NCBI RefSeq assembly: GCF_003570995.1
Contig: NZ_QXIY01000001.1
Span: 47,367 to 111,366, forward strand
Reading direction: 5' to 3'
Origin: Candidatus Cryosericum septentrionale
Lineage (GTDB): Bacteria > Caldisericota > Caldisericia > Cryosericales > Cryosericaceae
Length of the DNA: 64,000 bases
Positions 40,490-63,216 of this stretch are shown here, in pieces. Position numbers and translations under genes: made by a program. Every line of letters starts with the position of its first letter. The first letter of the stretch is position 1. The notes under the pieces were generated by a model. The model saw nothing but the letters and a program-made list of their open reading frames with translations, had not been told where the DNA came from and made no database searches.

Positions 40490-40942
40490 ATGAGCAATCT
40501 GACTGCCTTAAGTGTGGCTGGCTACTTCATAGAACTTGCAGCGGAATCGGATGAGAACGATCTCACTAATCTGAAGCTGCAGAAACTGCTGTACTTCGCT
40601 CAAGGTAAACATTTGTCACAATTTGACACACCGCTGTTTCACGACGATATCGAGGCTTGGAAGCTTGGCCCCGTTGTTCGAGCAGTCTACTCGGAGTACA
40701 AGAAGTGCGGGGCATTTCCTATAACCGTGTTTGATGGTTCCCCCACGTCTGCATCTCGCAATCTGCCGGAACCCATCAAGGCATTTCTCAAGAAGAGAGT
40801 GTGGGACAAGTACGGCAAGTATTCTGCCAGTTACCTAGTCAGCCTTTCGCACAAACAGGGAGGACCGTGGAGGAAATTCTACAAAGCAGAGACCAATGCC
40901 ACAATTCCCTTGGATGCATTGAAGGCGGCTGGTGAAGAGTAG
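40490..40942 (+). CDS. Panacea-domain antitoxin (SocA/GepA-like, DUF4065)
   Basis: 150 residues. GGGGAGG lies 9 bases before the ATG. The Panacea (DUF4065) pattern is clear: LTNLKLQKLLYFAQG, then DDIEAWKLGPVVRAVYSEYK and a closing SHKQGGPW. This domain serves as the antitoxin half of many hyper-variable toxin-antitoxin pairs (PanAT) and in the Caulobacter SocAB system. Its 3' end overlaps the next gene by 11 bases, the usual layout for such pairs. Confidence 0.85.
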   Translation: MSNLTALSVAGYFIELAAESDENDLTNLKLQKLLYFAQGKHLSQFDTPLFHDDIEAWKLGPVVRAVYSEYKKCGAFPITVFDGSPTSASRNLPEPIKAFLKKRVWDKYGKYSASYLVSLSHKQGGPWRKFYKAETNATIPLDALKAAGEE

Positions 40943-42931: not shown

Positions 42932-45334
42932 GTGGACCAGACGATAGACCTTGCAGGCCAAGCGCGTAGCCTTGTCCGGTCAGAACGAGAGAAGATTCTC
43001 TGCGAAATCCCGGAAACCGAGCTCCATGGGCATCTGAAATCTCTGTTTGAAAAAATGCAGCCAGACTACACAGTCGAGGTCACGCACGGAGTCGCGGAGT
43101 ACGGAAAGGATCTCGTCATTGTGAAGCGGGACAAGTTCGCTGCCCAGGTCGTCGGCATCGTCGTCAAGCGCGGAGACATCAAAGGGAAGACTGTTGGTCA
43201 CGTCGAGGATATTCTGTCCTCTGTTGAGCGAGCTTTCAAGACAGGAACACCTCGGGAGCTTGCGGAAATTGAGAGTCAGATGCGTCAAGCTGCCGAGCTT
43301 GGCGCGGAGTTGAAGGCTACGTTTGCCGAGTTGAGGGTGACCGACGTCTATGTCGTGATCGCAGGCACGATAAGTGTTTCTGCCCGGAAACGCCTCAAAG
43401 GTCAACTCCACGTTCCCATACAAGTGTTTGACCTAACGTGGCTCGTAGACAATTTCACAGATTTCTACCCGCAGGTTTTTTTTGATGGGCGGGCGCAAAA
43501 CTACATTCAGTCCGAAATCGAGAGACTTCAGCGTACTCCGTGGATGAGCCAAAAGGGTAGAAACCTGACGGACTACTATGTTGACCCGACTTTCATGTCC
43601 TGTGACATTCCTATTGACCTGAATCTGGACCACCTTGCCGCGCTTGCGGAGCTTCGACGTTTTCCATTTCAGAAGCTGCCAGACATAATCACCCAAAAAG
43701 GGCACGTGCTAATCCTTGGGGATCCTGGAAGCGGGAAGTCGGCAGCACTGGCGAAGATGGCGCTGGACAAGCTTCGGGTGGCATCGACGCAGTTGCGTGC
43801 GGGCCAGCGCAATGCCCCTGAGCTCAGAATCCCCGTGTTTCTGACGGCACGCGAGCTGTTGTCGATTCGAAGTGCGGAGGAGTTGCTTACACTTCGGCTC
43901 AAGGATCCAAGAGTAGTGCCCGAGGGAGCACGTATTGACTGTCTCCTTGTCGACGGACTCGATGAAATACCGAGAAAAGACAGGCTGACGGCTCTCCAGA
44001 GGGCTACAGAGCTCGCCGATTCACAGAAGTGCTCGGTCGTCGTGGCAAGCAGAAGAGTAAGCGATGTTCAGGCAGTCAGTAACGGCAACTATGCACGGTA
44101 TGAGATTCTGCCGTTCGGAACAGGGCAGGCCATCGAGCTGTTCAAGCACCTGGCGTCCTCTAGCATCATGTTGGAGGCACTTACCGAAGGGCTACAGCGC
44201 ATTCAACTGCAAATACCACTTTTCCCCCTGTCGCTTCTGCTCCTCATCAGGCTTGTCGAACAAGAGAAGGAAATACCTGCATCTATTACTGAACTCTACA
44301 CCGATTTCCTTGACATTGCGCTTGGCAAATTCGATCCAGACAAAGGGATCCAGGTGCTCTTTGAGTACCACATGAAGGAGGACTTTCTTGCACATCTCGC
44401 CTACGGCGAGTTCTTCGAGAAAGACCGTCTGGCGATACCGCGTGAGGATTTTGACTCCTTCTTGGACACGTATGTCGTTGATTTGGACATCAACAGAGAG
44501 AAACTCCAGGATTTCTTGACAGACTTGGAGAGAGCCGGCATCCTAGATTTGAAGGACGAGGTCGAGTTCAAGCATCGATCCTTTCTAGATTACTTCACTG
44601 CGTCCTACATCTATGGACACCGCGAAGAAATCGAACATCTCCACGACCGCATTGTCCAGATCTACTACGAAGGATTCTGGGAGGAAGTCGCGTTCTTCTA
44701 CGTAGGGCTGAAAATGGAGTTGAATGACGACCTAATGAGCAAGCTGCTGCAGCATGAACACGTGACGCTCTCCGACCTGGTGCTAAGGCTGCTGATTGGG
44801 CGCCTGCTGCAGGCGGGGTGGAAATCGACGTCAAGCGTGAAGCGTCGTGGTATCGACGGTGCAATTGATGTGGCAGAGCCAATCTACACGTCATTCCTCG
44901 AAGTGTGCAGGAAACGCGATGCAGTCTTTCCTTCGATATACTCCGATTTTCTTATGTTGAGTCTTGTAGAGGCGTCTTTCAGCAGCAATTTCCTGAAGAC
45001 GCAACTGGCGGATCTATTCGCACAGTGCATTTCTCGGAACGACGATAGGGCGCTCTCGCGATCAATCTTGTTTCTCTGGGCAGAGCAGCGCCTGATGACA
45101 CCAGGTGAACTCCGAGGAGCTGTAGAACAGTGCTCAAAACTCCTGAGCGGCGTTCGCGCTTTCTTGCCTGCCGAAAGAGCGAGGTACCTCTGGCTGCTGA
45201 AGTTGATTGGTAGAAAGGATCGGGAGCTTGAGCAACTTATCACTAAGAAGTTGAAGAGGCTGACGAAGGTTCATCCCGATGTCATGAAAGGATTGCTGCC
45301 GTACCGACAGCCTCTGCGAAGCCTTAAACGCTGA
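42932..45334 (+). CDS. NACHT NTPase with Mrr-like N-terminal domain
   Basis: 800 residues. Start is GTG with GGAGGAGG 5 bases upstream. Residues about 25-190 resemble a restriction-endonuclease (Mrr/PD-(D/E)xK) fold: EYGKD60LVIV and later GIVVK79RG. The acidic or Gln residue normally two before the lysine is V77, so nuclease activity is doubtful. The NACHT core follows: Walker A G263-DPGSGKS, Walker B CLLVDGLDEI near 337-346, and a sensor VVVASRRVSD. The C-terminal 400 residues are alpha-helical repeats, probably the target sensor. STAND/NACHT proteins with such layouts are bacterial anti-phage sensors (bNACHT, Avs). The gene is single and flanked by repeats B and C. Confidence 0.85.
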   Translation: MDQTIDLAGQARSLVRSEREKILCEIPETELHGHLKSLFEKMQPDYTVEVTHGVAEYGKDLVIVKRDKFAAQVVGIVVKRGDIKGKTVGHVEDILSSVERAFKTGTPRELAEIESQMRQAAELGAELKATFAELRVTDVYVVIAGTISVSARKRLKGQLHVPIQVFDLTWLVDNFTDFYPQVFFDGRAQNYIQSEIERLQRTPWMSQKGRNLTDYYVDPTFMSCDIPIDLNLDHLAALAELRRFPFQKLPDIITQKGHVLILGDPGSGKSAALAKMALDKLRVASTQLRAGQRNAPELRIPVFLTARELLSIRSAEELLTLRLKDPRVVPEGARIDCLLVDGLDEIPRKDRLTALQRATELADSQKCSVVVASRRVSDVQAVSNGNYARYEILPFGTGQAIELFKHLASSSIMLEALTEGLQRIQLQIPLFPLSLLLLIRLVEQEKEIPASITELYTDFLDIALGKFDPDKGIQVLFEYHMKEDFLAHLAYGEFFEKDRLAIPREDFDSFLDTYVVDLDINREKLQDFLTDLERAGILDLKDEVEFKHRSFLDYFTASYIYGHREEIEHLHDRIVQIYYEGFWEEVAFFYVGLKMELNDDLMSKLLQHEHVTLSDLVLRLLIGRLLQAGWKSTSSVKRRGIDGAIDVAEPIYTSFLEVCRKRDAVFPSIYSDFLMLSLVEASFSSNFLKTQLADLFAQCISRNDDRALSRSILFLWAEQRLMTPGELRGAVEQCSKLLSGVRAFLPAERARYLWLLKLIGRKDRELEQLITKKLKRLTKVHPDVMKGLLPYRQPLRSLKR

Positions 45335-51896: not shown

Positions 51897-54497
51897 TCAC
51901 CCTGCTGGTTCTGTCTGGTCCAAAGCGGACTCAAGGCTTGCCTTGAATCGGTTCTCATCCTGACTGTTGTAGAATGGGAGGCCAATCAGACGATAGTACT
52001 TGTCTCCCAAGATGAGTCTTTCGCCTTTGAACCTCTTGGCGATCTCCTCCAGGAAGGTCTCCTTCCAGCTGTCGTGTTCGATGAGATGTGCTCCTTTGGG
52101 TTCGATGAACAGTTGGTACCCCAGCAAATCACCATCTTTCTTGCGCAGGAAGAGAACGAAGTCGGGTTGGAAAGCTTGCCCATCAGAGAAGTTGTAGATG
52201 GAGAAGTGCCCTTCGTTACGCACAAGGTAGATTTCATCGTATCGTGTTCCCAGTTTCTGCATTTCTCCATCGAGAACGTGCACGAGGCTCTTCTCTTCGC
52301 TTGTTCCGAAAATGGTGTTGAAGGCGAACCAGTCTTTGGAAGACACGAAGTGATCAAAGTCTTGGTCTTCAGCAGCACGTAGATTGCTAGGAGTGAACTT
52401 AAGAGTCTTGTTCTTGAAGACTTCTTTGACCCCTGCGGGGTGAAACTCCTCCGTTCCTTGGTAATCCGTGACCTGTTGGCGGATTTTGGCTTCGAGTTGC
52501 ATTAGCAGACCTTGCACGGCCGACAATTTCTCGATGCGATTCTCCTCGAGCCCATCGAGGTTTCCGCTGAAGGTGATCTGTAGTCCGCCGAGGTAGTCCT
52601 CAGACGCCACAAAATCCTGCATCGAAGCGAGATTCGGGAAAAGACGCTTGAGAGAAACGAAAGTAAAGAATGGGTTGCGCGCTAGAGCGGATTGCACAAT
52701 GTTGCACTCGATTTCCTTGACTCGAATATCGCGGCGCGCTTCTTCACTGGACACTGTTCCGTTTCTGTCGTTGTCCAGCGCAACGGTTGAGCCTCCATGG
52801 CCCGTGGCAATATGGTGGACGTAGTTGCGGCGCTTCACGCCCAGGTCAGAAAGCGATTGTACGTCGTGGAAGTCACTAGGGCGGCGGAGGTTGAACCAAA
52901 CGACGCCATGTTGGTAGAAATCGGTTCTCTTGAATAGCTCTTTGAGTCTGAGCTCACGAGTGACCTCTTGTTGATCCATCATGCCCTGGTCAACAAGTGC
53001 GGACTGGATTTCAGCAACGTAGCGCGAGTCATTGATACTGTGATAGTCCAATTCTTCTAGCACGCGCAGTTCATGGTTCAAATCGCGGTCGAATTTGCGG
53101 CGGAAGAGATCATCGTTCCCGGGGAGGGCGAACGGAAAGTAGCGTGCCCCACGCCCGATGAGTTGTGCCTCGGACATCGTTGTTGCGCCGATCCTGTTAT
53201 GTCCTGAATCGCGCACTTCGTAGCACCGGACGATATCGAACAAGTTCAGGACATCCCAGCCTTCGTTCAGTTTCTGCACGGCGAAGATGGCACGGGTGCG
53301 GTTGGTCTTGTCTTCGAGGGTGTTGAGCCGAATTTGGTCTCTCTGTGTTTCAATGTCATTGTTGACTGACAGGCAGTAATCAGGCTGAAACTCCCGCTTC
53401 AGTCGTTTGGCAAGTTGTGCAGCCGTAATATCTTGAGCGTCGAAGAAAGCAAACGCGCGGCGAATCAGTGGGATGTCCGACGCACGGCGCAGGGCGGTGA
53501 TGTCCTTGGCTGAAAGGTTCTCGATGATTCGGTGAAAGTTGGCTTTGTTCTGGCGCGATTGTTCAACGGTATGCTGGGCCTTGAACAGAATGACGGGTTT
53601 GAGGTTGATGCGGTATTTGGCCGCTACCTCCTGTTTGTACTGGCTGAGGATCAAGGCCTGCAGAATGCGCCCGTCCTGCTGTAGATCAGAGTGAATAATA
53701 ACAACGTCTTTCGAGTAGCGCTCGTTGCGGAACTGGCGCAGGTCGTAACGGATGATGACCTTGTTGCGATATTTGTCCACCATCGCGCGCGTTTCGTAAT
53801 CATGTGTAGCAGTGAATTCCAGCAGCAGATTATCTTCATTTTGAGTGAATATGTCCTCGACGGTGTTTTCCCAACTCTCGAACATCTCCATCTCGGATTT
53901 GGTCTTGACGTTAATGTGATGCGCTTCGTCCGCAATCAACACGACTTTGTGTTTGCGGAAGTCCTCGTAAGTAATGGCATTCTCTCTCTCAGTGGTCAGA
54001 TCGGAGTGGAGCTTCTGGATCGTCGTGAAGCAAATGTTGATATCCCCAGGATTGACACCTTCGAAGTTTCCGACGGGCGAAACGCTCACGCGGCGATTGT
54101 CGACATGGATTTCCCGATTGAACAGGTACTTGATTGAGGCAGGGTTGAGGAAGTTATCTTTGGTCTTTTCGATGATGTTGGTGGAGTTGACGAAAAACAG
54201 GAAATCGCGGTAGCCCTGCTCATAGAGGTACAAAATCAGCCCTGCCATGATGAGCGTCTTGCCGCTCCCCGTAGCCATGTTGAACAGCAAGTGGAGGGGA
54301 TATTTCTTGTTAGGGAAGTCGTTCTTGTAGGAGTAAAAAAAGCGTGCAAAGGCTTCTACTTGATATGGGCGTAGTTCGTATTTTGGGTTCAGGTTCTGCC
54401 CGACGCAATCAGGGACTTCCTTCTTGAGAAAGCCCATACTTGAGACGGAGTCGAGTTGTTCATAGAGAAATTGCTTAGGCGTCGTATGCGTTTCCAT
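51897..54497 (-). CDS. res: Type III restriction enzyme, Res subunit
   Basis: 866 residues. Superfamily 2 helicase motifs: I NMATGSGK80T, II LIADEAHHI, III EFTATHDYE and VI IGRGARYFPF. The C-terminal nuclease is of PD-(D/E)xK type: QPD779FVLF followed by LFIE799PK801G. It cleaves DNA after translocation when two unmodified sites are met. It starts 23 bases inside the end of mod, a normal layout. The chain is full length for type III Res proteins of this group. Confidence 0.95.
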   Translation of the reverse strand: METHTTPKQFLYEQLDSVSSMGFLKKEVPDCVGQNLNPKYELRPYQVEAFARFFYSYKNDFPNKKYPLHLLFNMATGSGKTLIMAGLILYLYEQGYRDFLFFVNSTNIIEKTKDNFLNPASIKYLFNREIHVDNRRVSVSPVGNFEGVNPGDINICFTTIQKLHSDLTTERENAITYEDFRKHKVVLIADEAHHINVKTKSEMEMFESWENTVEDIFTQNEDNLLLEFTATHDYETRAMVDKYRNKVIIRYDLRQFRNERYSKDVVIIHSDLQQDGRILQALILSQYKQEVAAKYRINLKPVILFKAQHTVEQSRQNKANFHRIIENLSAKDITALRRASDIPLIRRAFAFFDAQDITAAQLAKRLKREFQPDYCLSVNNDIETQRDQIRLNTLEDKTNRTRAIFAVQKLNEGWDVLNLFDIVRCYEVRDSGHNRIGATTMSEAQLIGRGARYFPFALPGNDDLFRRKFDRDLNHELRVLEELDYHSINDSRYVAEIQSALVDQGMMDQQEVTRELRLKELFKRTDFYQHGVVWFNLRRPSDFHDVQSLSDLGVKRRNYVHHIATGHGGSTVALDNDRNGTVSSEEARRDIRVKEIECNIVQSALARNPFFTFVSLKRLFPNLASMQDFVASEDYLGGLQITFSGNLDGLEENRIEKLSAVQGLLMQLEAKIRQQVTDYQGTEEFHPAGVKEVFKNKTLKFTPSNLRAAEDQDFDHFVSSKDWFAFNTIFGTSEEKSLVHVLDGEMQKLGTRYDEIYLVRNEGHFSIYNFSDGQAFQPDFVLFLRKKDGDLLGYQLFIEPKGAHLIEHDSWKETFLEEIAKRFKGERLILGDKYYRLIGLPFYNSQDENRFKASLESALDQTEPAG

Positions 54498-56430
54498 AGA
54501 ATGCCTTGTTCAGTGCTTTGTCTTCCTTGCTCACCTTGAATTGTGCGTCGTCAATCTCCGAGAGGTTGACGTAGAGCTGGTTCTTGTCGAGAAGTTCTGC
54601 CAGCAGGTGCTTCTGCTTCTCAAGTCCTTTCGGCTCTTTGCCAATTGCCTCAAAATCCCTGAGGGCATCTTCAGGCATTGCCGAATTGACATACCAGTTC
54701 AAGAATGAACCTTCCGCCATATCTTGCCAGATTTCCAGCAGTTCTTTGCTGGTCTTGGCGGTCTGAATACGTTCCATGAAAGCCTCGTTGTACTTCATCA
54801 ATTCACAGTAGATGAAGTCGCAGTCTTGTCCTACAGCCGCCTTTCCTACTCTATTAACGGTGACATCACTTACATAGTCCATTTGCTCGCACAGAATGAA
54901 CTGCCTGTTGCCCCCGTCTTCTCTGTTCAATTCTACTACTGCGTGAGCGGTCGTTCCTGATCCAGCAAAGAAATCCAGAACAGTATCATTCCCCCCGCGT
55001 TCAGTGAGAATGTCGATCGTATCTTTCACGGCATAGAGCGATTTAGGGTAACTGAAGACCTTCTCGCCGTTGAACATCCCCTTTAGCAGCATTGTGCCAT
55101 TTGCTGACGCATCGTATTTTGAGTCAGTCCAAATCGTTTTGGGTTTTCTGCCCTCTTTTACCCTGTCTTTCATATACACAACCCACTTGCCAGTGGATTT
55201 CCTGCACACCATGTCCCCCCTTTCCACTGCTTTCAAGAACGAGGGTCTGGTCTGTCTCCAGACTCGCCTTTTTCCAAGCTTGTCGATAGGCAGAATCTCG
55301 ACAGATCCTTCATTCTTCTCCAACGAGAAGGCTTGCTTCTTCTCGTTGTAGTAAACAGGATAGTAAGAGTTCGGTCTTTCTTCGGGAGTCGAGGTGCCTC
55401 CGCTTCTTCTAAACGGCAATAGGCGATAGTCGCCCGACTCATCCTTCTTGTCAAACTCCAGTTCTTGTTCCTTTGTCAGCTTTATGTAATTCACCGAGAC
55501 GCTGTCGATATCTTTCGCATAGAACAGCGCATATTCGTGACATGTGGCGAAGTGCGTATTTGTTGTTCGTCCTCGCGGATTGCTTTGAATGACGATGGTC
55601 CCCAAGTAGTTCTCTCTATCGAATACTTCATCACACAGCAATTTCAGGTGGGCGTATTCATTGTCATCTATCGTAGCAACCAGAACTCCATCCTCCCTCA
55701 GCAAATCCTTCGCGACTTCTAGACGGTTCTTCATGAATGTAAGCCATGTCGAGTGGTTGAAGTTGTTGTTATACCCAAAGGTGTTGCTGTCTCCTGGGGT
55801 GTTATAGGGCGGGTCCGCATAGATCAACTTGACCTGTCCACGAAACTGCTGTGTCAGCGTGTGCACAGCCAGCAGGTTGTTCCCCTTGATTATCAAGTTG
55901 TCGCGAATCACGCCACCTTTATCGCGCTTGAAGTCAGTCACGGGTTCTGTGCCGTTCGCGGCGTGGCGCGCAAAGTTGGTCAGTACTTTGGGAGCGAGCA
56001 GGCGGTTGATTTCGTCCTGGGCCAGCACTTCGTTGAAGAAGATCTCTTTGCGCGTCTCTTCCTCCTTCGTCTGTCCACCCTCCAAGACCGTGTCTTTGTA
56101 GGGCCACACTAGCGCAACCTCGCCGCGCTCGCTCAGGAATCTGCCGCCAACTGTCAAACCAATGCGGTTCTTAAAACGCGTGTACGAGTTGTCCAGGAAG
56201 TCCTTCTGGGAGATGTAGTCAATGAAGGTATTGAGGTTGAAAACCCGGTGCCCGTCAATGTCATCAAAGAACGTGGCTTCCAGGTCAGCGTTCGCCAGCA
56301 ACAGCCGCATTAGGTCATGGTCCATCTTCCAGGCGGAGTCCTGCACGGCGGCAAGGACGAGTTCGCCGTCATCATCCACAAAGCGCGGGTCGGTCTTGAG
56401 CAAATCGATTAGTGTCGGGTACAGTTTCAT
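54475..56430 (-). CDS. mod: Type III DNA methyltransferase, Mod subunit
   Basis: 651 residues. Motif IV D206-P-P-Y (YADPPYNTPGD) precedes motif I DFFAGSGTT (D486), the beta-class order of N6-adenine/N4-cytosine methyltransferases. A DNA-recognition region of about 270 residues lies between them. It both protects host DNA and gives sequence specificity to Res. AGGAGA is 6 bases before the ATG. An upstream hairpin (9-bp stem, 56456-56477) lies in the leader and could affect expression. Confidence 0.95.
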   Translation of the reverse strand: MKLYPTLIDLLKTDPRFVDDDGELVLAAVQDSAWKMDHDLMRLLLANADLEATFFDDIDGHRVFNLNTFIDYISQKDFLDNSYTRFKNRIGLTVGGRFLSERGEVALVWPYKDTVLEGGQTKEEETRKEIFFNEVLAQDEINRLLAPKVLTNFARHAANGTEPVTDFKRDKGGVIRDNLIIKGNNLLAVHTLTQQFRGQVKLIYADPPYNTPGDSNTFGYNNNFNHSTWLTFMKNRLEVAKDLLREDGVLVATIDDNEYAHLKLLCDEVFDRENYLGTIVIQSNPRGRTTNTHFATCHEYALFYAKDIDSVSVNYIKLTKEQELEFDKKDESGDYRLLPFRRSGGTSTPEERPNSYYPVYYNEKKQAFSLEKNEGSVEILPIDKLGKRRVWRQTRPSFLKAVERGDMVCRKSTGKWVVYMKDRVKEGRKPKTIWTDSKYDASANGTMLLKGMFNGEKVFSYPKSLYAVKDTIDILTERGGNDTVLDFFAGSGTTAHAVVELNREDGGNRQFILCEQMDYVSDVTVNRVGKAAVGQDCDFIYCELMKYNEAFMERIQTAKTSKELLEIWQDMAEGSFLNWYVNSAMPEDALRDFEAIGKEPKGLEKQKHLLAELLDKNQLYVNLSEIDDAQFKVSKEDKALNKAFYGNAYDA

Positions 56431-59952: not shown

Positions 59953-60717
59953 ATGCTTGAAGCGCTCTTTGTTGACACTGATGTGCATTCATCCATCACC
60001 TCACTCCGACCGGGAACCATGAAGACTGCGGACCTTGTCACCTATGTTCGTGAACGCACGACCGGCAGCCCAGTCACTCAGGACCCCAACACCAAGGCCG
60101 CGCTTGCCGTGATCCTCGGGCCAGAAGCAGCTGCTCGTTTGTTCGCGAAGGCGGCACGCGACCAACATGTCGAACGTCCCAGCTTGGCCGAACTGCTACG
60201 GGCACTGAGAACAGCGCCAGATACCTTCGAAGAGGTGCTTACAACAATGCAGACAGCACGTATCATGGCCGCAGCGGACCTCGCCCGCGCCCTGGTTCTC
60301 GAGCATGACCATCCGAAGACGGTCATCCGGGTCACCAGCGCGGAAGATGCGATCGACTATGTCCTCCACAACCTGGGCGCATTGCACGACGAGAGCAACG
60401 AACACTTTTTCGCCGTCTTGCTTGATATCCGGAACAAGGTCATCGGAGCACCTATTGAAGTCAGCCGAGGGAGCGTCAGCGCATCGGTCGTCGATCCTGC
60501 GGACATCGTCCGGGAAGCCTGCATCCACCACGCAAGTCGCGTCATTTTAGTGCACAACCATCCAAGCGGAGAGTGCGATCCCAGCAAGGAGGACCTCGAC
60601 ACCACCAACAAGATTGTCCAGGCACTGAAGTACGTCGGTGTCCGCGTCCTTGACCACATCATCGTGGGCAAAAGCCGCCAGAACTATTTCAGTTTCGCGA
60701 AGGCGGGATTGGTGTAG
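59953..60717 (+). CDS. radC: RadC-like JAB/MPN domain protein
   Basis: 254 residues. AAAGGAGG lies before the ATG. The C-terminal 120 residues hold the MPN/JAB metal site: VHNHPSGECDPSKED (H-x-H-x10-D) preceded by DIRNKVIGAPIEVSRG. The N-terminal 110 residues differ from chromosomal RadC and look helical. RadC-like proteins of this kind are common on phages, plasmids and ICEs; their biochemical role remains uncertain. It lies in front of an ArdC-N-like gene. Confidence 0.85.
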   Translation: MLEALFVDTDVHSSITSLRPGTMKTADLVTYVRERTTGSPVTQDPNTKAALAVILGPEAAARLFAKAARDQHVERPSLAELLRALRTAPDTFEEVLTTMQTARIMAAADLARALVLEHDHPKTVIRVTSAEDAIDYVLHNLGALHDESNEHFFAVLLDIRNKVIGAPIEVSRGSVSASVVDPADIVREACIHHASRVILVHNHPSGECDPSKEDLDTTNKIVQALKYVGVRVLDHIIVGKSRQNYFSFAKAGLV

Positions 60718-60790
60718 TGCCTCACCCATTTGCGCCACTGAACCCAGAAGCATCACGGAAGCCGGGGATCCACCGGCAAGGGAGAGAACT

Positions 60791-61162
60791 ATGGAAGCGA
60801 CTAGGAATCGTATCAGGGAACGCCGGAAGAGAGTCAACCACGCAGAACGCGCAGCCATGCAGACAGCTGCTCTTGGACGGGCACGGGAGGGGAGGACCTG
60901 TACGAATGACTTGCTGATTATCGCAGCATATGCAGCCAAAGGAATCGACGCCCACCCGCGTATCGATGTCTTCACGTTCAATGCGTGGAAGGCCCTCCAC
61001 CGGCACGTCAGGAAAGGCGAGCATGGCATTCACGTTGCGATCTACGCGCACAAGGACACGGTGAAGTCCGACGGCACCACGGAAGAACAGAGTTTTCCCG
61101 TCTCCGCCGTTGTGTTTCACGTCACCCAGACCGATCCGGACACTGAGAATGTGACAGCATGA
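60791..61162 (+). CDS. ArdC N-terminal-like protein
   Basis: 123 residues from the ATG with GGGAGAG 5 bases upstream. The FTFNAWKALHRHVRKGEHGI block matches the ArdC N-terminal (DUF1738-type) domain with its RKGE loop, known as an ssDNA-binding and anti-restriction part of plasmid and ICE proteins. The usual C-terminal zinc metalloprotease (MPTase) domain is absent. Here it is followed by a separate 70-residue gene (ATGA overlap). An anti-restriction role is inferred. Confidence 0.7.
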   Translation: MEATRNRIRERRKRVNHAERAAMQTAALGRAREGRTCTNDLLIIAAYAAKGIDAHPRIDVFTFNAWKALHRHVRKGEHGIHVAIYAHKDTVKSDGTTEEQSFPVSAVVFHVTQTDPDTENVTA

Positions 61163-62451: not shown

Positions 62452-63216
62452 ATGCCCAATTCAGAATTGCGGTTGTTCCAGTTCAACACTTCGCCCGTCC
62501 GCACGGTCATGGTCAATGGCGAGCCATGGTTCGTAGCCAAAGACATCAGCGACGTCCTCGAGTTCAGAGACACAGCCAATGCTCTACGCAGTCTCGAGGA
62601 CTGTGAAAAGGATCTCCACATTGTGGAGACCCTTGGTGGAGACCAGTCTATGACTAGATCCGAAAAGGGTACCAGTAATGTTGGTACCCTTGGTGAAATT
62701 CAATCTATTCAGGAACTGGAGAGCTCTGCAAAGGGTGAGTGCAAAGCACCGACCCTCGGCACAACACAGTCGATTCAGAGACTCGAAGACCTCGAAAAGG
62801 GTGTAGGTTTAATCTACACCCTTGATGGAGACCAGTCTACGTCCGACTTGACGAAGGGTGTCCACAGTATGGACACCCTTCGTGGAGAGCAGTCTATACC
62901 CGATTCCATGAGGGGGGTGACTAGTATGAACTCCCTTGGTGGAAATCAGTCTATGACTATCGTTGCGGAAGCAGAGATGTACAAATTGGTGTTTACAAGC
63001 CGAGAGCCCCATGCGGAGGCGTTCACCAACTGGGTTGTGTCCGAAGTCCTTCCCGCTATCCGTAAGACAGGATCGTACAGTGCTGTCACCACAGAATCTG
63101 AACTTCCCACCACTTTCTCTCCGGCGCTCTACCTCGCCGCGAAACAGCAGGAGAAGATCGAGGAGCAACACGTGAGGCTGGTGTCTTCCTGTGCAGTACT
63201 GTCAACATGCTCTTGA
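62452..63216 (+). CDS. BRO-N domain (phage antirepressor) protein with tandem repeats
   Basis: 254 residues. The BRO-N fold begins SELRLFQFNTSPVRTVMV and GEPWFVAKDISDVLEF, and ends with YKLVFTSREPHAEAFTNWVVSEVLPAIRKTGSY. Between them, where typical BRO-N has one K-G-V...T-L-G-G-x-Q strand-turn, this protein has six copies at 19- or 22-residue spacing (about residues 52-165). The domain normally binds DNA and acts in phage antirepressors. The C-terminus stops soon after KIEEQHVRL; a +1 shift at about 63180 continues for 40 codons, so the end may be frameshifted. The DNA repeats are described separately. Confidence 0.82.
   Translation: MPNSELRLFQFNTSPVRTVMVNGEPWFVAKDISDVLEFRDTANALRSLEDCEKDLHIVETLGGDQSMTRSEKGTSNVGTLGEIQSIQELESSAKGECKAPTLGTTQSIQRLEDLEKGVGLIYTLDGDQSTSDLTKGVHSMDTLRGEQSIPDSMRGVTSMNSLGGNQSMTIVAEAEMYKLVFTSREPHAEAFTNWVVSEVLPAIRKTGSYSAVTTESELPTTFSPALYLAAKQQEKIEEQHVRLVSSCAVLSTCS
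62606..62955 (+). repeat. Six tandem hairpin units inside the BRO-N gene
   Basis: Hairpin-forming units begin near 62606, 62663, 62730, 62796, 62854 and 62911, with steps of 57 or 66 bases (19 or 22 codons). Each holds an inverted repeat starting AAGGGT or similar and ending ACCCTT. Units 2, 4 and 5 have perfect 10-bp arms (AAGGGTACCA, AAGGGTGTAG and AAGGGTGTCC, each with its own complement) and 7-base loops. Unit 1 pairs TCTCCAC with GTGGAGA. Units 3 and 6 pair with mismatches or G-T pairs. Each is followed by a GGTGGAGACCAGTCTATG-like segment. Confidence 0.9.

Follow-up and report, generated by a model that had tools for sequence, protein, structure and literature searches.

BRO-N antirepressor genes carry, in the codons of the wing, a palindrome coupled to the encoded recognition helix: a probable self-encoded operator, with a six-unit array in Candidatus Cryosericum septentrionale

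Our analysis reveals that genes for BRO-N antirepressors contain, where they code for wing strand 1, a palindrome whose inner arms co-vary with the recognition helix encoded just upstream. We propose that each BRO-N gene very probably encodes the operator of its own protein within these wing codons, an appraisal that leaves aside the role of the array described below. As reconstructed from sequence comparison, the palindrome would be a duplex-DNA operator made of two mirrored half-sites and bound by a BRO-N dimer. The recognition helix, encoded 21-39 bases (7–13 residues) upstream, would read the inner arms (pairs 7-10), and the outer GGG/CCC arms would be coupled to the wing class. Bound to its own gene, the dimer may repress or gate expression, or nucleate a complex, and the BRO-N gene would constitute a portable cassette that unites reader and site.

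The window, i.e. the whole stretch of 64,000 nucleotides of Candidatus Cryosericum septentrionale DNA analysed here, holds an expanded form of such a gene (Table 1). Its protein matches Pfam Bro-N (PF02498; E=6.8e-18, 65.5 bits versus a curated cut-off of 25.6) in two parts that the repeats separate, and the PHROG anti-repressor Ant (E=1.3e-42). Between the recognition helix and the remainder of the BRO-N domain lie six units of the form K-G-x5-T-L-G-G-x-Q-S, which start at 62608, 62665, 62731, 62797, 62854 and 62911 (spacings of 57, 66, 66, 57 and 57 bases). The coding sequence of each unit spans a 27-base palindrome centred on the second base of codon 5, which makes facing codons in-register reverse complements. 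Perfect 10-bp arms around a 7-base centre are found in units 2, 4 and 5; in unit 1, AAGG/CCTT and TCTCCAC/GTGGAGA flank one mismatch. This makes four units with whole or almost whole palindromes, units 3 and 6 being partly decayed. Over the 13 pairs of the six units, 64 of 78 are Watson-Crick, versus 38.1±3.3 in recodings of the identical amino acids by local codon usage, none of which reaches 64 in 20,000 trials. These results confirm the six co-varying units at 57 or 66 bases and the three perfect stems described by the sequence-only reading, which had also supposed that an ordinary BRO-N protein has one such strand-turn. This is borne out by a same-genus relative (G001, L009), in which a single unit forms a perfect 10-bp palindrome, and by other homologs. 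Genome-wide, matches to the strict pattern AAGGGT-N15-ACCCTT are confined to the BRO-N gene of the window. On the opposite strand, an antisense frame (62809-63171, -) reads K-G-V-H-T-V-D-T-L repeats because palindrome and codons share their register; it is probably no gene.

Table 1. Positions of the BRO-N gene, its palindromes, neighbouring genes and related arrays
Feature	Position	Strand	Remarks
BRO-N antirepressor-like ORF, five extra wing units inserted	62452-63216	+	254 aa; Pfam Bro-N and PHROG matches
Recognition-helix codons (residues 41-46, columns -12..-7)	62572..62589	+	AlphaFold2 helices; mutual information in homologs
Palindrome unit 1	62608..62634	+	arms CTCC/GGAG at pairs 7-10
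Palindrome unit 2	62665..62691	+	arms ACCA/TGGT, as in the single palindrome of G001 (helix D-E-Q)
Palindrome unit 3	62731..62757	+	partly decayed, left arm GAGT
Palindrome unit 4	62797..62823	+	arms GTAG/CTAC, as in L199 (helix N-R-H)
Palindrome unit 5	62851..62883	+	arms GTCC/GGAC, the N-R-N helix class; pairing continues to 14 bp
Palindrome unit 6	62911..62937	+	partly decayed, left arm GTGA; predicted to code for the wing in the folded structure
RadC-like gene, same mobile region	59953..60717	+	Pfam RadC E=1.9e-38
ORF with ArdC N-terminal (anti-restriction) domain	60638..61162	+	Pfam ArdcN E=7.2e-8
DnaA/DnaC-like ATPase, about 1.5 kb downstream of BRO-N	L333:1958-3217		
Large serine recombinase, about 3.5 kb after BRO-N, beyond the window	L333:3973-5499 (G000:C1)		phrog_95 integrase E=1.2e-74
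Another large serine recombinase, near the single-unit BRO-N gene of G001	L334:408-2051		
Two-palindrome array within a BRO-N N-terminal extension	L364:1617-2492	-	second multi-site BRO-N gene
Two-palindrome array directly upstream of a BRO-N start	L363		
Two-palindrome arrays directly after BRO-N	L362, L069		
Two-palindrome array beside a repressor-like gene	L354		
Two-palindrome arrays at further places	L365, L360, L081		

The palindrome is a property of the family at large. Scanning IMG/VR, whose sampling is uneven, with the outer arms alone gave at least 120 contigs, nearly all of them BRO-N among the matches listed, and the inner 15 bases, on which no selection had been made, are palindromic. 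Two homolog sets were picked at the amino-acid level only, one of them via peptides elsewhere in the domain; as the latter displays the same essentially invariant AAG and ACC codons, tool bias was rejected as their cause. Indeed, in 129 non-redundant canonical BRO-N genes, the lysine is encoded by AAG (124/124) and the threonine by ACC (129/129), unlike the neighbouring Glu, Gly and Gln codons, which vary normally at synonymous sites. Pairing between codons 3 and 7 reaches 330 of 387 versus 268.8±5.1 in a within-amino-acid shuffle (z=12.0), and codons 4 and 6 are complementary beyond an amino-acid-preserving shuffle as well (z=8.3). The threonine codon at position 3 sets the facing residue (Gly for ACC, Arg for ACG, Ser for ACT), a relation explained by no protein-level rule. 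Along the BRO-N gene, dyad symmetry forms a single peak (z=36 versus a synonymous null), with nothing in the control region. Selection is thus exerted at the nucleic-acid level: the pairing in homologs lies far above the codon-preserving null, and the joint changes of the arms do not simply follow from the protein sequence, the outcome on which the sequence-only reading had made its claim depend. The symmetry is not uniform, since a GTA/GAC mismatch is common at pair 9 and pairs 11-12 are weakly symmetric. In 14 BRO-N genes with other wing sequences, the palindrome occupies the same place (z=9.3) with different outer arms, for instance GATGGGGTAG/CTACCCCATC in Mycobacterium phage Pippy. EDKG-type BRO-N genes (AAA-GGG..., L283 and L293) have a palindrome shifted by one base from the canonical register. 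Three further candidates were set aside: the tandem repeats of Thalassomonas (L018) share flank words and are not palindromic, which we regard as a coincidence, and L019 and L020 are chance matches.

The identity of the arms follows that of the recognition helix. Mutual information with the palindrome base pairs peaks at columns -13, -11, -10 and -7 relative to the lysine. We rejected hitchhiking of helix and palindrome, since little or no coupling is seen at the variable columns nearer the palindrome (-3, 11, 13 and 14). Columns -20, -15 and +25 also couple strongly; they are probably clade markers, so phylogeny inflates a part of the coupling signal. At the level of residues, with Arg(-11) pair 7 is G·C in 57/58 and pair 8 is T·A in 55/58, Lys(-10) is accompanied by A·T at pair 10 (18/21), and the combination D(-13)..N(-10) by arms ACTC/GAGT (9/10). 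When flanks are 75-90% identical, genes that agree in the helix triple have an arm identity of 0.95, versus 0.33 for those that share none of it; distant relatives with the same helix retain an arm identity of 0.75–0.85 (0.75 at 30-45% flank identity). In single-unit homologs, the arms match the prediction made from the gene's own helix. For named phages outside the training set, this prediction agrees in all six that have a matching helix (Paenibacillus HB10c2 and Norbert, Bordetella IFTN3, Escherichia PhiR12_5, Edwardsiella GF-2 and Gordonia CarolAnn), in Norbert as second choice. The N-R-D helix goes with GTCG in three outer-arm contexts, namely AAGGG, GCTGG (L260) and GATG (L286, phage CBP1). 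Palindromes outside the coding sequence behave alike: where the internal palindrome is broken (L175), the arms of a copy upstream are those that the helix class predicts, and at L095 a copy upstream of BRO-N repeats the internal arms.

For a single-unit relative, AlphaFold2 proposes a winged helix-turn-helix (pLDDT 90), with the coupled residues on or beside the second helix and the palindrome coding for wing strand 1. The model of the window protein is confident at residues 11-50 and about 155-206, and the insert (52-141) is disordered. Its elements follow the same order as in the single-unit relative, both BRO-N halves are predicted to fold as they do there, and unit 6 would be the actual wing. 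No solved structure matching the window protein by sequence was found; the nearest solved folds to BRO-N (model mf247eb838585) are weak matches, first Deinococcus DdrC (7udi, E=0.012) and then Dachshund/Ski domains.

What the array of the window does is a separate question. The helix of this protein, with the specificity residues D(-13), A(-11), N(-10) and R(-7), belongs to the D-A-N class and predicts arms ACTC/GAGT, which are absent from all six units (left arms in Table 1); the CTCC arm of unit 1 has no counterpart in the homolog set. Elsewhere in the genome, the predicted own operator is at background level (12 matches versus 9 for the control, at two mismatches). The operator/wing unit may have been duplicated into six copies within the disordered insert, which would serve as a multi-specific binding platform (a sensor or decoy for the BRO-N proteins of other elements) or be a residue of recombination among those elements. 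We give close to even chances to the possibility that the operators are real and that this array is a neutral tandem duplication devoid of function, with arms inherited by recombination or drift; this possibility bears on the array alone and leaves the operator proposal intact. The decay of units 3 and 6, the lack of any unit fitting the gene's own helix and the disorder of the insert all agree with neutrality, whereas the four intact or near-intact units, every one with a different arm class, do not, and neither does the recurrence of two-palindrome arrays with differing arms in or beside other phage BRO-N genes (Table 1). No tandem array was seen in named phages and plasmids, and the first tandem pattern searched in IMG/VR gave 0 matches. 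A more speculative proposal, which we find rather doubtful, is that arrays act as decoys or pan-specific listening posts: within or next to its own BRO-N gene, a mobile element would gather the BRO-N operators of several other phages, and thereby sense or titrate their antirepressors. If so, they would represent a layer of cross-phage communication or interference written in operator palindromes.

The form in which the palindrome operates is better fitted by a dyad in double-stranded DNA than by an RNA hairpin. Most genes have ANT or TNA as the central codon, and the first and third bases of this codon are complementary in 149 of 166, versus a shuffle maximum of 97, even though only one base would lie between the two if they paired. 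At pairs 7-9, depletion is as strong for G·T as for A·C. Both the symmetry up to the central base and this equal depletion favour duplex DNA. It is accordingly improbable that the palindrome is a hairpin of mRNA or single-stranded DNA controlling translation, transcription or replication, even though the arms fold back perfectly in many genes and always lie within the transcript. Besides the one-base loop that pair 13 would impose and the G·T depletion, the dependence of arm identity on a DNA-recognition helix and the existence of extragenic copies argue against it, as does the lack of any Rfam match at the palindrome in the five related loci scanned. Central symmetry, G·T depletion and the tie of the arms to the helix also leave the structural readings offered from the sequence alone (a hairpin, a slippage or recombination substrate, or a translational control region) unsupported; slippage may change the number of units.

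Still less probable is a site for recombination or attachment, or a mobile palindromic element. The geometry of 10-bp arms around a 7-bp centre recalls tyrosine recombinase cores, arrays with differing arms suggest exchange between elements, and a serine integrase is encoded in the same region. However, the arms co-vary with the BRO-N helix, the palindrome is not dispersed in the host genome, and a BRO-N gene interrupted at its palindrome was never met (an incidental observation rather than a systematic search). Finally, a mutational process such as intrastrand template switching or quasi-palindrome correction, which would keep arms complementary without selection and could account for joint arm changes even where amino acids alter, is hardly credible, for it predicts neither the coupling to the recognition helix nor a fixed location across outer-arm classes, and the central triplet is beyond correction through a hairpin.

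Several observations weigh against the self-encoded operator itself: the lack of any unit fitting the helix of the window protein, the share of phylogeny in the coupling signal, the common mismatch at pair 9 and the weak symmetry of pairs 11-12. In addition, most BRO-N genes are without a second matching site nearby, which is unusual for an operator. Extra copies in the same contigs show no general enrichment over control contigs, and the BRO-N gene is therefore usually the sole site. Were the proposal correct, every BRO-N gene would state its own target and the binding specificity of the whole family could be read from sequence, offering a residue-to-base code, testable at once, for phage switch proteins that form a large and poorly understood family; the arrays would in turn open interference or signalling between phages to direct testing. 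The presence of helix and site within about 40 bases would also explain how the two can remain linked despite mosaic recombination. Few phage regulators are as common as BRO-N antirepressors, and an approximate, consensus-like BRO-N query gave 1,245 matches in phage records. In the open-access literature searched, we found no description of a self-encoded operator or recognition code for BRO-N, nor any target site of the domain.

The BRO-N gene of the window lies in a mobile region (Table 1); the search within the phylum covered 54 genomes. Other genes of the window include a type III restriction-modification pair near the mobile region (res and mod subunits by Pfam, 51897-56430, -), a STAND-type NTPase (nSTAND_NTPase4; 43055-45334, +), which is a candidate defence gene, and a SocA/Panacea ORF (40490-40942).

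Compared with known phage antirepressors of the BRO-N family (PF02498), the window gene shares the domain, the wing and turn, and the phage setting, and differs by its six units where the G001 relative has one. Rickettsia palindromic elements, which lie in-frame within coding sequences and are dispersed over many genes, offer a parallel for in-frame palindromes, yet those of the window are restricted to BRO-N in their own genome. Phage HK022 Roi, reportedly binding a site inside roi, is likewise of the antirepressor type and may have a site within its gene; by eye, its N-terminal sequence does not resemble BRO-N, and we saw no strong dyad or comparable palindrome in roi. A parallel in architecture is phage lambda O, where near-identical ori iterons inside gene O are read by O and encode a flexible segment. 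The arms of the window differ between units and none fits its own helix, unlike these iterons. In both cases, however, tandem palindromic sites lie in the gene of a DNA-binding protein and code for a flexible segment; the DnaA/DnaC-like ATPase downstream of the BRO-N gene resembles a helicase loader and may be a candidate for that role.
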